Shown here: one piece after another, positions 5,003 through 32,143 of the stretch
Layout: each line of letters begins with the position of its first letter
Numbering within the stretch: the first letter of the stretch is position 1
DNA from: a virus
Length of the DNA: 32,402 nucleotides
Direction: 5' to 3' (one strand)
IMG/VR virus record: IMGVR_UViG_3300037560_000147
Coordinates: 1-32,402 of that record
Notes under the pieces: generated by a model
Databases searched by the model: none
The model's input: only the letters and a program-made list of their open reading frames with translations
Told to the model about the DNA's origin: nothing
Program-made: the position numbers and the translations under genes

Positions 5003-6575
5003 CAGCCGCACCTTGCATCTCTTGAGCGGCTGTTATTGCATCTTGAGCTAATTGAACCTTTCTATCTTCAACAACTTGCTCAACTGGCACCAACCACGTA
5101 GAAGGAGCGCCAGTGCCCGCAATCGCATCTCTAAGAGCAACATCAAAATCAACATTATCAGCGCTTGAGGGGTCTAGCGCTTCGGCGTCTGCTAGCATCT
5201 GACTAACTTTAGCAAATTGATTTGTTTTGGTCTCTTCTTCTGAGGCAGATAATGGAGACTTGAATTTAAATACAACATCTCTATCTCGTAATGAGTTAGG
5301 AATGTCTTGAGGTGACCCAAGTAAACCAGCAGCCATTGCAATCTCGAAAGCTATTTCACATAATTGGCCATTATATTCAGCTTCGATAGGTGCAAACAAA
5401 GGAAGGTTTTCACGCCTGAATTGTTTCATTCTCTCAGAAACTTCATAAGCGGTCATTTCTCTACCCATATCAGGCAGTGTAATTTTATTAAGGTAAAACG
5501 CGCTATTTAAAACCTGAACAATATCATTGCGCATTTCTAAACCAATAGGGAAACCGCCGCGATCTTGAGAGATTGGCCTTAAAGCATCACCTAATCTTTC
5601 ATCATACTCATCATCAACCCAGGTTACGCCATCAGGAGATAAATCTACATCACTACGAATTACCTTTTGTGTGGCAATCATAGGGGGTCTTGCGTATCTT
5701 TCACCCGCTTCGAGCAAGGTATGAGTCATGGCCTGCAATGAGCGCGCATCAGGTAAAGCAATAATAGTTGCAGGAGAATAAGCGTAAGGACTACCTGAAA
5801 CTGTTTGGAATCTAGGGACAATATAATACTTATGGTTAATGCCAACCGCTTCAATTACGTGTTTATTGGCCACATCCAGGTAAATCGATACATAAGGGTT
5901 TTTAATTTTCTCATCACCATACATATCTGAAGTAATGACTAAATGTCTGATATCTGCCTCTTTAAAAGGCTCATCTTTAAGTTTGTCTATAATTGATGGG
6001 TGAACTTTCTTTTTGCCAAAATATCTAACTAACTGGTCATAAGTAGGCTTCCACTTTCTTGAAACGCCTGAAACTGAACCTGTTTCATCTTCATACCACG
6101 CGCAATCTCTTAAGTGCCATGACCTAAATAATAACCCATTTGCATGTTTATTTAACTCGCAACTAATAACACATTGGCCAAATGTAATGTAATCGTGATC
6201 GCCTTCTTTGGTTGCTCTGATGAAATTAGCAGACCTGTCATCAAATAAGCTCTTTAATCTGCCTGAAGCCCATTGAAGCCAAGCATCACCAACATGATCA
6301 GACTCACCTTGAACGCCAACTTTAAACCAATCACCATCGCGCAACATAGCGGATAATGAGTTAGCTAAATCTCTACGAACCAATACCGGATAAGAGCTAA
6401 CCAATAAATCAGCTAATTCATTACCAATATTTCTGGTTACCGTGAAATCTGCTCTTTCTGGATAGAAATGATCGGATAAGGTTTGATAGAGGGAAAGCAT
6501 TGGATATTGCTTGGTAAACAAGTGATCAGAATGCCTTACTAGTTCTTGTTCGGATAATTTAACCAAGTGTATCAC
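4992..6575 (-). CDS. Portal (head-to-tail connecting) protein
   Basis: 527 residues, typical length for this family. It begins with a helical region (LYQTLSDHFYPERADF) followed by LANSLSAML, and has the hallmark SPYAYSPATIIALPDARSLQ and LLEAGERYARPPM segments of the T7/epsilon15 head-tail connector family, which form the dodecameric ring through which DNA is pumped and to which the tail attaches. The C-terminus is Gln/Ala-rich and helical. Its start overlaps the 69-residue gene by 17 bases. It lies immediately downstream of the large terminase, the usual order. Confidence 0.93.
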   Translation of the reverse strand: MIHLVKLSEQELVRHSDHLFTKQYPMLSLYQTLSDHFYPERADFTVTRNIGNELADLLVSSYPVLVRRDLANSLSAMLRDGDWFKVGVQGESDHVGDAWLQWASGRLKSLFDDRSANFIRATKEGDHDYITFGQCVISCELNKHANGLLFRSWHLRDCAWYEDETGSVSGVSRKWKPTYDQLVRYFGKKKVHPSIIDKLKDEPFKEADIRHLVITSDMYGDEKIKNPYVSIYLDVANKHVIEAVGINHKYYIVPRFQTVSGSPYAYSPATIIALPDARSLQAMTHTLLEAGERYARPPMIATQKVIRSDVDLSPDGVTWVDDEYDERLGDALRPISQDRGGFPIGLEMRNDIVQVLNSAFYLNKITLPDMGREMTAYEVSERMKQFRRENLPLFAPIEAEYNGQLCEIAFEIAMAAGLLGSPQDIPNSLRDRDVVFKFKSPLSASEEETKTNQFAKVSQMLADAEALDPSSADNVDFDVALRDAIAGTGAPSTWLVPVEQVVEDRKVQLAQDAITAAQEMQGAADGQ

Positions 6576-21160: not shown

Positions 21161-21340
21161 TTACCCAATTAATCGATTGCTGCGACAATAACAGCATTCG
21201 CACTGAGGGTGATTTGGTTTGTTAAACAGCTCTGATGATTTCTTAAGAGTATCATCAAGAGCCTTCTTGCCCTCTGGTGATTTCACCCAGATCGCTATTT
21301 TTCTCAGTATTTCTTCTTTCTCTTCAGGTGTAACTATCAT
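21161..21340 (-). CDS. Small protein with C-terminal Cys cluster
   Basis: 59 residues from ATG 21340 (a TTG six bases earlier would use the same leader, but spacing matches other copies with ATG). Helical, KEEILRKIAIWVKSPEGKKA, then HPQCECCYCR with four Cys, possibly metal-binding. About 110 bases downstream to the next gene hold nothing recognisable. Confidence 0.55.
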   Translation of the reverse strand: MIVTPEEKEEILRKIAIWVKSPEGKKALDDTLKKSSELFNKPNHPQCECCYCRSNRLIG

Positions 21341-21360
21341 GGTCAAAAATTTCCTTGTAA

Positions 21361-21516
21361 CTATTTAATAAGATATTTGTCCGGATTTTTAAGAACTCTA
21401 TCTCGAATTCTCTTTGCTAATCCAGCATTCAAAGGGTTAAAAAACATTGGTTTATCAGCCGCTAATTTCGATACCATTAGCAATTCAAACTTTAGCTTTT
21501 TAATGTCTTCACTCAT
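21361..21516 (-). CDS. Small basic helical protein
   Basis: 51 residues, MSEDIKKLKFELLMVSKLAA then NAGLAKRIRDRVLKNPDKYL; ATG at 21516 preceded by CAGGAAGCTTCC. Two short basic helices. Not recognised. Confidence 0.55.
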   Translation of the reverse strand: MSEDIKKLKFELLMVSKLAADKPMFFNPLNAGLAKRIRDRVLKNPDKYLIK

Positions 21517-30837: not shown

Positions 30838-30866
30838 TTTACAATTTAAAGGAGGTGATATAAGAT
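30838..30866 (+). promoter_or_regulatory. Promoter of the RNA gene at 30873
   Basis: TTTACA (30838-30843), 17-base spacer, TAAGAT (30861-30866); predicted start about 30873. Same -35 box and spacing as the leftward promoter at 29160. An AAAGGAGGTGA sequence in the spacer has no start codon after it. Confidence 0.55.
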
Positions 30867-30872
30867 CTAAGG

Positions 30873-31003
30873 GCTGTGTGGAAGCAGTTTTAAGGAAAAG
30901 ATAATCAAGGTTTATTGTTAAAGTCTGGGCATTCGTGGGTAATCACTTCCACTTATGTCTTTTCCGCCCTGATTGTCGAGGCTTTAACAATGAGCCTTTT
31001 TTT
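30873..31003 (+). ncRNA. Candidate non-coding RNA with pseudoknot potential
   Basis: About 130 bases between a promoter and an intrinsic terminator with no reading frame of note. ATTGTTAAAG (30914-30923) is fully complementary to CTTTAACAAT (30982-30991). Inside, GGGC (30927-30930)/GCCC (30966-30969) and GTGG (30935-30938)/CCAC (30949-30952) can nest. GGAAAAGA (30894-30901) pairs perfectly with TCTTTTCC (30958-30965), crossing the first helix as a pseudoknot; GTGGAAG (30878-30884)/CTTCCAC (30946-30952) is an alternative. The long helix shares bases with the terminator stem, so it could also work as a switch. Confidence 0.5.
30979..31003 (+). terminator. Intrinsic terminator
   Basis: AGGCT (30979-30983), 9-base loop, AGCCT (30993-30997) and a run of seven T (30997-31003). 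The stem is short, and its 5' arm and loop are part of the 30982-30991 segment that can pair upstream. Confidence 0.6.
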
Positions 31004-31093
31004 ATGTCTGGTAAGTTCGTAACGCTTGGTGTGTAGTTTGTAGAATCACCTATCAGACGCCTTCAAATTCCTTTCACAGATAGATGATATAAG

Positions 31094-31169
31094 CGCGGCA
31101 TAGTGTAGTAGGTTAGCACAGGATCCTTTGAAGTTCCTAGGTTGGGTTCAAATCCCGATGCCGCTGCCA
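31094..31169 (+). tRNA. tRNA-Gln (anticodon UUG)
   Basis: Cloverleaf: acceptor 31094-31100/31159-31165 with a C-T mismatch at the first pair and six good pairs, D-arm GTGT...GCAC with GG in the loop, anticodon stem GGATC/GTTCC with one T-T mismatch, loop CTTTGAA (anticodon TTG at 31128-31130), T-arm TTGGG/CCCGA with loop TTCAAAT, discriminator G and encoded CCA at 31167-31169. An unpaired first position and G73 are bacterial tRNA-Gln identity features, supporting the call. Phage tRNAs often supply codons used more by the phage than the host. Confidence 0.85.
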
Positions 31170-31448
31170 TCATCTAGAGTCAGTATAGATTTAATGCTTG
31201 GTCTAGCACGATGCTGCCGCCCGATAGACGTATCGGTTTACGAATGGCGAATGTGGTTGAATTCCACGCCCGGCTCCAAATCTATACTGATTAAAGTCTT
31301 ATCTACAGACCAGCTCGCATTAAGACAAGATATGTCTCCCTTAGTCAACACGCCGCTTAAGGTAGTTTTGGGAACTCTCACCGACTTAATGTTAAAAGCG
31401 TATGAAGAATGTCTAGCGCTGGCTGAGTCCGAAAGATACAACAGTTGA
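31158..31448 (+). CDS. Possible protein gene beginning inside the tRNA 3' end
   Basis: 96 codons from ATG 31158 (or 83 from ATG 31194; the frame is open from 31128). The translation looks like a real protein, e.g. VYEWRMWLNSTPGSKSILIK and PLKVVLGTLTDLMLKAYEE. Codon third positions are more GC-rich than neighbours, suggesting separate origin. No good ribosome site precedes either ATG, and the frame contains a long inverted repeat, so an RNA role is the alternative. No family recognised. Confidence 0.4.
   Translation: MPLPSSRVSIDLMLGLARCCRPIDVSVYEWRMWLNSTPGSKSILIKVLSTDQLALRQDMSPLVNTPLKVVLGTLTDLMLKAYEECLALAESERYNS
31180..31290 (+). repeat. 13-bp perfect inverted repeat with inner hairpins
   Basis: TCAGTATAGATTT (31180-31192) is complementary to AAATCTATACTGA (31278-31290). 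Between them are CCGATA-GACG-TATCGG (31221-31236) and TGTGG-TTGAATT-CCACG (31252-31268), the latter like a tRNA T-arm, followed by CGGCTCCA. The folded RNA would be about 110 bases with two or more inner hairpins. Confidence 0.55.
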
Positions 31449-31630: not shown

Positions 31631-32143
31631 ATGAATAATAAGTTTAATGTAAAGGAATATCAAAGTGATAAGGTTAAAGTAATTAAATATATAGGTGGTA
31701 AAGCAGTAGAGTCAGAAATTGATTATATGCCAAATAAACCAAAGTTTGTTAAAGGTGATGTAATTAAAAAATTAACCAAGAAGCAGCAAAGAAGACTTAA
31801 CAAAGCTAAGCGAAAAGGGGTTAAAAAGAAAAATACTCCTAAAACTAAATCGTTCTATAAAAGTGAACAATGGTATCAATTAAGATATCAGGTATTAAGA
31901 AAATACGAGGCTAAATGTATGTGTTGCGGTAGAAGCCCTAAAGAACACGGTATTGTCATTCATGTTGACCATATCAAACCAAGGTCTAAATATCCTAAAT
32001 TGGCTCTGTCTTTTGATAACATGCAATTATTATGCGCAGCCTGTAATTATGGTAAAAGCAATATAGATAATACTGACTGGCGGCCATTAGCATTACCAAG
32101 TAACGATATTGAATTAATTAAACAATCTCAGAAGATGGGATAA
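31631..32143 (+). CDS. HNH endonuclease
   Basis: 170 residues. Basic N-terminal half (KKLTKKQQRRLNKAKRKGVKKK), then a zinc-bound HNH domain: C96-x2-C99, D113-H114 in HVDHIKPRSK, N130 in SFDNMQLLC, C135-x2-C138 with N139 as the last core position. The His-Asn-Asn variant with two Cys pairs is common in phage HNH nucleases. It could be a packaging-associated or mobile (homing) nuclease; here it is far from the terminase and next to a tRNA and RNA elements, which favours a free-standing mobile enzyme. AAGGG precedes the ATG. Confidence 0.85.
   Translation: MNNKFNVKEYQSDKVKVIKYIGGKAVESEIDYMPNKPKFVKGDVIKKLTKKQQRRLNKAKRKGVKKKNTPKTKSFYKSEQWYQLRYQVLRKYEAKCMCCGRSPKEHGIVIHVDHIKPRSKYPKLALSFDNMQLLCAACNYGKSNIDNTDWRPLALPSNDIELIKQSQKMG

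Follow-up and report, generated by a model that had tools for sequence, protein, structure and literature searches.

A putative modular RNA family of marine phages whose pseudoknotted 5' domain adjoins tRNAs and tRNA-like hairpins

The IMG/VR virus record IMGVR_UViG_3300037560_000147, whose 32,402 bases are referred to here as the window, contains a non-coding segment at positions 30838-31003 that raises a simple question: does it specify a small RNA that is complete in itself, or the beginning of something longer? The window codes for phage structural and replication genes, including a portal-type head-tail adaptor, a major head protein and an Erf-like protein, and the segment is flanked by a 166-amino acid gene with no assigned family on one side and by a tRNA-Gln on the other, with an HNH endonuclease gene further on. 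An original prediction from the sequence described a stand-alone RNA gene and a complete small transcription unit, with a promoter, crossing long-range helices and a terminator, and offered as possible roles a small regulatory RNA, a cis-acting switch controlling the tRNA/HNH region, and an antitermination or antitoxin RNA. The promoter, the helices and the terminator-like end are all located where that prediction placed them; what they are part of is the subject of the analysis reported here.

A blastn search with the segment returned a single weak match (71% identity over 131 bases, E = 0.01) in unannotated DNA of Pseudoalteromonas phage H105/1, and alignment of the two sequences reveals double compensatory changes in two helices, denoted P2 (GGAAAAGA/UCUUUUCC versus GUAGAUAUAG/CUAUAUCUAC) and T. 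Gapped patterns derived from this pair recovered six more virus contigs and a Colwellia metagenome-assembled genome; the remaining matches to these patterns, including L008, L010 and L031-L038, are attributable to chance, and a pattern search of genome contigs yielded one true member (L016) as against 18 chance matches. A covariance model, R1, was built from nine sequences and used for all later searching, and blastn searches with members found by pattern reached the named phages BS5, HS2, HS5 and Pq0 and Vibrio phages 1.131.O, 1.085.O, 1.054.O and NF. Several rounds of DNA searching thus gave 34 relatives of the segment, in Pseudoalteromonas and Vibrio phages, a Colwellia genome and virus contigs, and the working set comprises 35 sequences (the window plus these 34), with hosts assigned from the named phages and the Colwellia genome only. 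An exact search with a 23-mer from the window matched no contig, relatives were absent from the plasmids searched, and blastn with member L057 as query matched no named phage. Antisense covariance-model matches inside members were discarded as palindromic echoes of T. A covariance-model search of 397 genomes of the family to which the Colwellia genome (L016) belongs found only the genome already known, which argues that this is not a host RNA.

The promoter is of sigma70 type and lies on the plus strand at 30838-30866; as read from the sequence with a script listing, it has a -35 box TTTACA (30838-30843), a 17-base spacer and a -10 box TAAGAT (30861-30866). The consensus match alone is unremarkable (9/12, with three such sites observed versus 3.6 expected in shuffled sequences), and a sigma70-like promoter is present upstream in 19 of the first 20 homologues, with the first stem usually starting 6-14 bases past the -10 box. 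The spacer also holds a perfect extended Shine-Dalgarno sequence, AAAGGAGGTGAT (30848-30859), with no suitably spaced start codon.

Downstream of the promoter is M1, which is, as judged from sequence comparison, a knotted 5' domain of about 130 nt, all of its elements being on the plus strand. The fold of the 30838-31003 segment is far more stable than those of dinucleotide shuffles (z = -5.6 and -4.5, 0/200). Its first element, P1, is a 4-bp hairpin, GCUG-UGUGGAAG-CAGU (30873-30888), at or just past the predicted transcription start; among 30 members it is paired at 111 of 120 positions, with GCGG, GCAG and GCUG each accompanied by a matching 3' arm. The P1 loop holds the 5' strand of a pseudoknot helix, PK1 (GUGGAAG, 30878-30884), whose 3' strand (CUUCCAC, 30946-30952) is inside the T loop. 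The 35 members have 15 distinct versions of this loop between them, and nearly all find a complementary partner in the T loop (for example UGUGGAAG/CUUCCAC, UGUGAGAG/CUCUCAC, UUUAGUAG/CUACUAAA and UUUGGUAG/CUACCAA), although the pairing is bulged in L041, L042 and L048. This 7-base match (GTGGAAG/CTTCCAC in the DNA) had been set aside in the original prediction as one that could be chance, and it proves to be one of the most strongly supported pairings that the family has.

Two further helices, P2 and P3, both pair the leader with the T loop. P2 (30894-30901, GGAAAAGA, with 30958-30965, UCUUUUCC) is an exact 8-bp helix that varies in concert on its two sides, being GUAGAUAUAG/CUAUAUCUAC in H105/1, GGUAUAG/CUAUACC in L005 and GAAAUUGGUAGA/UCUACUGAUUUC in L048. 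P3 is an extra crossing helix that was missed initially; its 5' strand (30900-30910, GAUAAUCAAGG; DNA GATAATCAAGG) has GA in common with P2 and AAGG in common with T, and it pairs with 30967-30977 (CCCUGAUUGUC; DNA CCCTGATTGTC) with one A-C mismatch. T itself is a continuous stem of 20 pairs in the window (30907-30926, AAGGUUUAUUGUUAAAGUCU, with 30979-30998, AGGCUUUAACAAUGAGCCUU) and ranges from 18 to 28 bp across the family; the exact 10-base helix predicted at 30914-30923/30982-30991, and noted as overlapping the terminator stem, is the middle of T. It is followed by a U7 run (30997-31003), which has counterparts of 5-8 U in 34 of the 35 members and is absent in phage HS5.

Support for these helices was assessed by comparing two scores: that of the best pairing between the 5' and 3' parts of one and the same sequence, and that obtained once the 3' parts had been permuted among the sequences. 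The comparison (n = 35) ignores relatedness among members. With that reservation, no permutation in 5000 equalled the observed score for PK1 (17.6 own versus 12.5 permuted), P2 (17.1 versus 11.0), P3 (13.2 versus 9.0) or T (30.0 versus 13.8, the strand boundaries of T being drawn by eye). Covariation in 35 sequences excludes chance as the source of the helices, and the compensatory changes extend to both predicted helices and to the 7-base match; the earlier judgment that the 10-base match was unlikely by chance stands, as does the view that the segment belongs to a genuine RNA gene, transcribed from a promoter of its own and containing crossing long-range helices.

Members fall into two topologies. 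In group A, to which the window belongs, the 3' strands follow one another as PK1, P2, P3 and T; group B places P2 ahead of the others and has overlapping PK1 and P3 strands, and P3 taken in this group by itself gives a weak signal unless a mismatch is allowed. One contig of a Colwellia metagenome-assembled genome (G001:C100) holds two different members, at 5859-5982 (L048) and 21280-21413 (L046), one from each group and 15 kb apart. P3 and T have 2-4 bases in common in most members and both covary, and because of these shared bases and of linkers of zero length it is unlikely on geometric grounds that P2, P3 and T are all fully formed at once; part of M1 may thus act as a switch and have no single static fold. 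In Pseudoalteromonas phage HS5 (L069:1883-2000), P1, PK1, P2 and T are kept and both the U-run and the stem that follows it are lost; retention of T without the U-run argues for a structural function of T in itself.

The segment does not end the conserved sequence. Comparison of members identifies conserved blocks downstream of the U-run, and patterns made from these blocks retrieve M1: a 31-base pattern recovered six new contigs, in all of which R1 found the 5' domain upstream (E from 1.6e-14 to 8e-5), and an 18-letter pattern from another block recovered ten more, again with the 5' domain present in every case (E from 4e-21 to 5e-6). Neither pattern holds any 5'-domain sequence, so the presence of M1 upstream in 16/16 newly recovered loci argues independently for treating the 5' domain and these blocks as a single unit. 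A covarying stem, M2 (16.5 own versus 14.0 permuted, 0/5000 in the same comparison uncorrected for relatedness), starts directly 3' of the U-run, is of the 7-bp GUGUCUG/CAGACAC type in most members, and is followed by AACCCUUUCAAAGC-like sequence. The window version is the hairpin UGUCUGGUA...UAUCAGACG at 31005-31059, a putative slot for a tRNA or tRNA-like element, with a tail, CCUUCAAAUUCCUUUCA (31060-31076), corresponding to the conserved (AA)CCCUUUCAAAGC. Beyond it, the tRNA-Gln(UUG) at 31094-31169 sits on a short rod helix, UAGAUGAU/AUCAUCUA (31081-31176), and a further rod, M3 (31180-31290), is formed by a perfect 13-bp helix, UCAGUAUAGAUUU/AAAUCUAUACUGA; its homology is by inspection, the base of the window M3 resembling the AGUCUGUAUA/UAUACAGAUU rod of other members. 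All of these lie on the plus strand. A covarying stem immediately past the U-run and further conserved modules beyond it indicate that the segment is very probably the 5' domain of a larger modular RNA, of about 400-700 nt, with embedded tRNAs or tRNA remnants, and the descriptions "stand-alone" and "complete small transcription unit" accordingly had to be given up.

The relationship with tRNAs is most evident in Vibrio phage 1.085.O (MG592460.1; L064:1998-2268), in which the 5' domain is followed by a tRNA-Trp, with no spacer after the U-run, and then by a tRNA-Arg; no other member shows so clearly a working tRNA occupying the M2 slot. The same blastn match, with an annotated tRNA-Trp, is given by four more phages of Vibrio breoganii. 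ARAGORN recognises tRNAs in just two family members, the window and 1.085.O, and the surrounding RNA is conserved even in the majority where it recognises none; tRNA T-arm motifs occur at 11 sites in 9 of the 35 members, versus 0.04 expected. Further 3', a module common to 12 of the first 20 members (nhmmer E from 3e-54 to 5e-32) was not found when searched for in the window, and other members carry different 3' domains. The common module lies about 100-500 bases past the 5' domain in L003, L016, L039-L042, L044 and L048-L052, and appears pseudoknotted; its helices cross and covary, and its core resembles GGUGUGGACUACCAACAAGGAU. Window modules beyond 31297 match no other member, and the downstream region of the window, folded by itself, is not notably stable (z = -1.6 and -1.4), two points that weigh against the reading as a longer RNA.

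The genes near the RNA are far less constant. The first protein gene 3' of the RNA in the window codes for an HNH endonuclease (31631-32143, plus strand) and is a neighbour outside the RNA; proteins of homing-endonuclease type, from the unrelated HNH, AP2-containing and T5orf172/GIY-YIG families, are the first downstream product in 8 of the first 30 members (the window, L009, L011, L016, L055, L057, L059 and L061). The suggested link to the tRNA and to homing-endonuclease genes is supported. A DNA methylase adjoins the RNA in several other members, and the gene that follows varies from member to member. In L005 the genes past the RNA are on the opposite strand for about 2.6 kb with no co-directional gene among them, which argues against the RNA serving there simply as the leader of a gene further on. 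No protein gene recurs beside the RNA in most members, the commonest being a small protein found in 8 of 20. This protein (MTRKTKISCDVTREADNLLKAF...) is of one family, lies 0.8-1.7 kb from the RNA in L040, L042, L043, L044, L049, L016, L006 and L011, and is encoded on the strand opposite to the RNA in each of these except L006. A search for related loci with the upstream 166-amino acid protein gave no match, indicating that neighbouring genes do not track the RNA. Homing-endonuclease genes downstream may spread, recombine and reshuffle the RNA locus, which would fit the mosaic nature of the 3' domains.

Since promoter, helices and modules are all conserved, an RNA product is the simplest reading of the locus. 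The explanation that we favour, and regard as probable, is that M1 is the 5' domain of a new modular phage RNA family, a fold or scaffold that would act in trans and yield two products. Transcription is predicted to start at P1, whose loop would pair with the loop of the long T helix; past the U-run would come the M2 slot with either a tRNA or a tRNA-like hairpin, then the rod-like M3, often capped by tRNA remnants, and then one of several 3' domains. During synthesis P1, PK1 and P2 would fold before P3, and T would then displace P3. That P3 would occupy the G's that T needs beside the U-run suggests either such an ordered co-transcriptional fold or a read-through switch. Two products might arise at the T/U-run boundary: the complete 400-700-nt transcript, and a form of about 130 nt consisting of M1, released either because termination there is partial or because RNase P cleaves where the tRNA-like stem begins, a processing step that we put forward tentatively. 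T with its U-run resembles an intrinsic terminator in 34/35 members, and this was counted against the reading as a longer RNA.

That resemblance bears on one alternative, in which an intrinsic terminator ends a small RNA some 130 nt long and the downstream modules are separate elements. A promoter of its own in 19 of the first 20 members, a compact fold and a run of U5-8 in 34/35 do look like a whole sRNA gene, and either termination or RNase P cleavage would release an RNA of that size. However, the next covarying stem begins within a base or two of the U-run, which leaves no room for a second promoter, and the downstream modules predict M1 in 16/16 loci, so that this alternative seems improbable. 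Another alternative treats M1 as a cis-acting attenuator or antiterminator leader, in which P3, when held by a protein, an RNA or RNA polymerase itself, would leave T open and permit read-through into the tRNA-like region and homing-endonuclease or early genes, and closure of T would stop transcription at the U-run. P3 and T are alternative helices with shared bases, both conserved and covarying, and their use of the same G's keeps a switch or attenuator role in play; in group B the overlap of the PK1 and P3 partners would also set the P1 loop and P3 in competition for one strand, and M1 sits right after the promoter and ahead of tRNA and accessory genes. Mutually exclusive helices next to a U-run are likewise a property of transcription-attenuation riboswitches, but no known ligand-binding family is recognised here. 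Phage HK022 putRNA, a nascent RNA near an early promoter that is about 70 nt long, has two stem-loops and acts on RNA polymerase, provides a phage precedent (PMC9378689), although M1 is about 130 nt, has at least five helices, including T with its U-run and crossing helices, and has a terminator-like stem of its own. We nevertheless consider attenuation rather unlikely: what is conserved downstream is a structural RNA, with no constant regulated gene, and members vary in the gene that comes next; in L005 about 2.6 kb pass without a co-directional gene, and HS5 kept T and lost the U-run. T would moreover be much more stable than P3, which would then form only transiently unless helped.

A mobile intron is usually recognised by a conserved RNA that occurs together with endonucleases from unrelated families. 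The endonuclease genes that come first in 8 of the first 30 members, together with unrelated insertion contexts, bring to mind such an element, either a self-splicing intron or another ribozyme that homing endonucleases have spread. Against this, cmscan of the window and eight homologous loci (gathering threshold) and of the window region, L040 and L050 (E<=10) found no Rfam group I or II intron, and the RNA begins at a promoter rather than within a gene; no flanking exons were found, and an RNA starting outside genes has no exons to join, so that we think an intron very unlikely. The same cmscan searches matched no Rfam family of any kind, weak matches to hsp17, permuted tmRNA and plant miRNAs being at chance level. 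Type III antitoxins can be pseudoknotted RNAs, which is the only point in favour of an RNA antitoxin; no toxin-like neighbour recurs among genes within 6 kb of 20 members, and the antitoxin role suggested originally found no support. A small regulatory RNA antisense to a host target is no easier to reconcile with a P1 loop that varies freely provided that its internal partner varies along with it, since such a loop is an unlikely antisense seed, and we regard an antitoxin or antisense RNA as scarcely credible.

Large structured phage RNAs are few, and GOLLD and ROOL are the best studied. Both are large, pseudoknotted and located near tRNAs, and they can form RNA-only cages (PMC12286853). GOLLD, like the modular RNA proposed here, is a phage or prophage RNA of several hundred nt that is pseudoknotted and near tRNAs, sometimes with tRNAs in its linker, and it has one conserved and one variable half (PMC12286853); in GOLLD it is the 3' region that is conserved, whereas the new family is constant at its 5' domain and variable 3'. 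ROOL (Rumen-Originating, Ornate, Large) is likewise a phage RNA near tRNA islands with multiple pseudoknots (PMC12286853), but the new family has an internal U-run and modular swapping of 3' domains. The new family is akin to both in being phage-encoded and beside or containing tRNAs, and yet is unrelated to them by sequence, with no covariance-model match (cmscan, gathering threshold or E<=10). It also resembles phage tRNA arrays and tRNA-like structures in having real tRNAs in the same slots (tRNA-Gln in the window, tRNA-Trp and tRNA-Arg in 1.085.O) and T-arm motifs elsewhere, but differs in that most members have no ARAGORN-recognised tRNA and yet conserve the surrounding RNA. No earlier description was found in the open-access literature searched, and this family of long, shape-conserved, non-coding RNAs in phages of marine Gammaproteobacteria appears to be new.

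By analogy with GOLLD and ROOL, the RNA may act in trans as a folded RNA or scaffold, although we hold this with less than even confidence. A more speculative proposal, and a doubtful one, is that it is a cassette-like large phage RNA in which the pseudoknotted 5' domain stays constant, the 3' domains can be exchanged and the tRNAs in their slots decay into structural hairpins, and that it would assemble during infection into an RNA-only particle as GOLLD and ROOL do, with M1 switching between P3 and T to give the short or the long form. The family is distinct and is present in small cultivable phages (H105/1, HS2, BS5, Pq0 and Vibrio phages 1.085.O, 1.054.O and NF), and it shows intermediates between a working tRNA and a tRNA-like hairpin; these make a link between ornate RNAs and phage tRNA loci directly testable. 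More generally, where a phage genome shows a unit composed of a promoter, a hairpin and a U-run, a far longer RNA can be starting there. About 190 Vibrio phage records match a query from L048, the one examined being without the 5' domain, and in Vibrio phage K172 (OZ195673.1; L068:2001-2045) a 45-base element from the L048 M2 hairpin lies directly after an array of four tRNAs.
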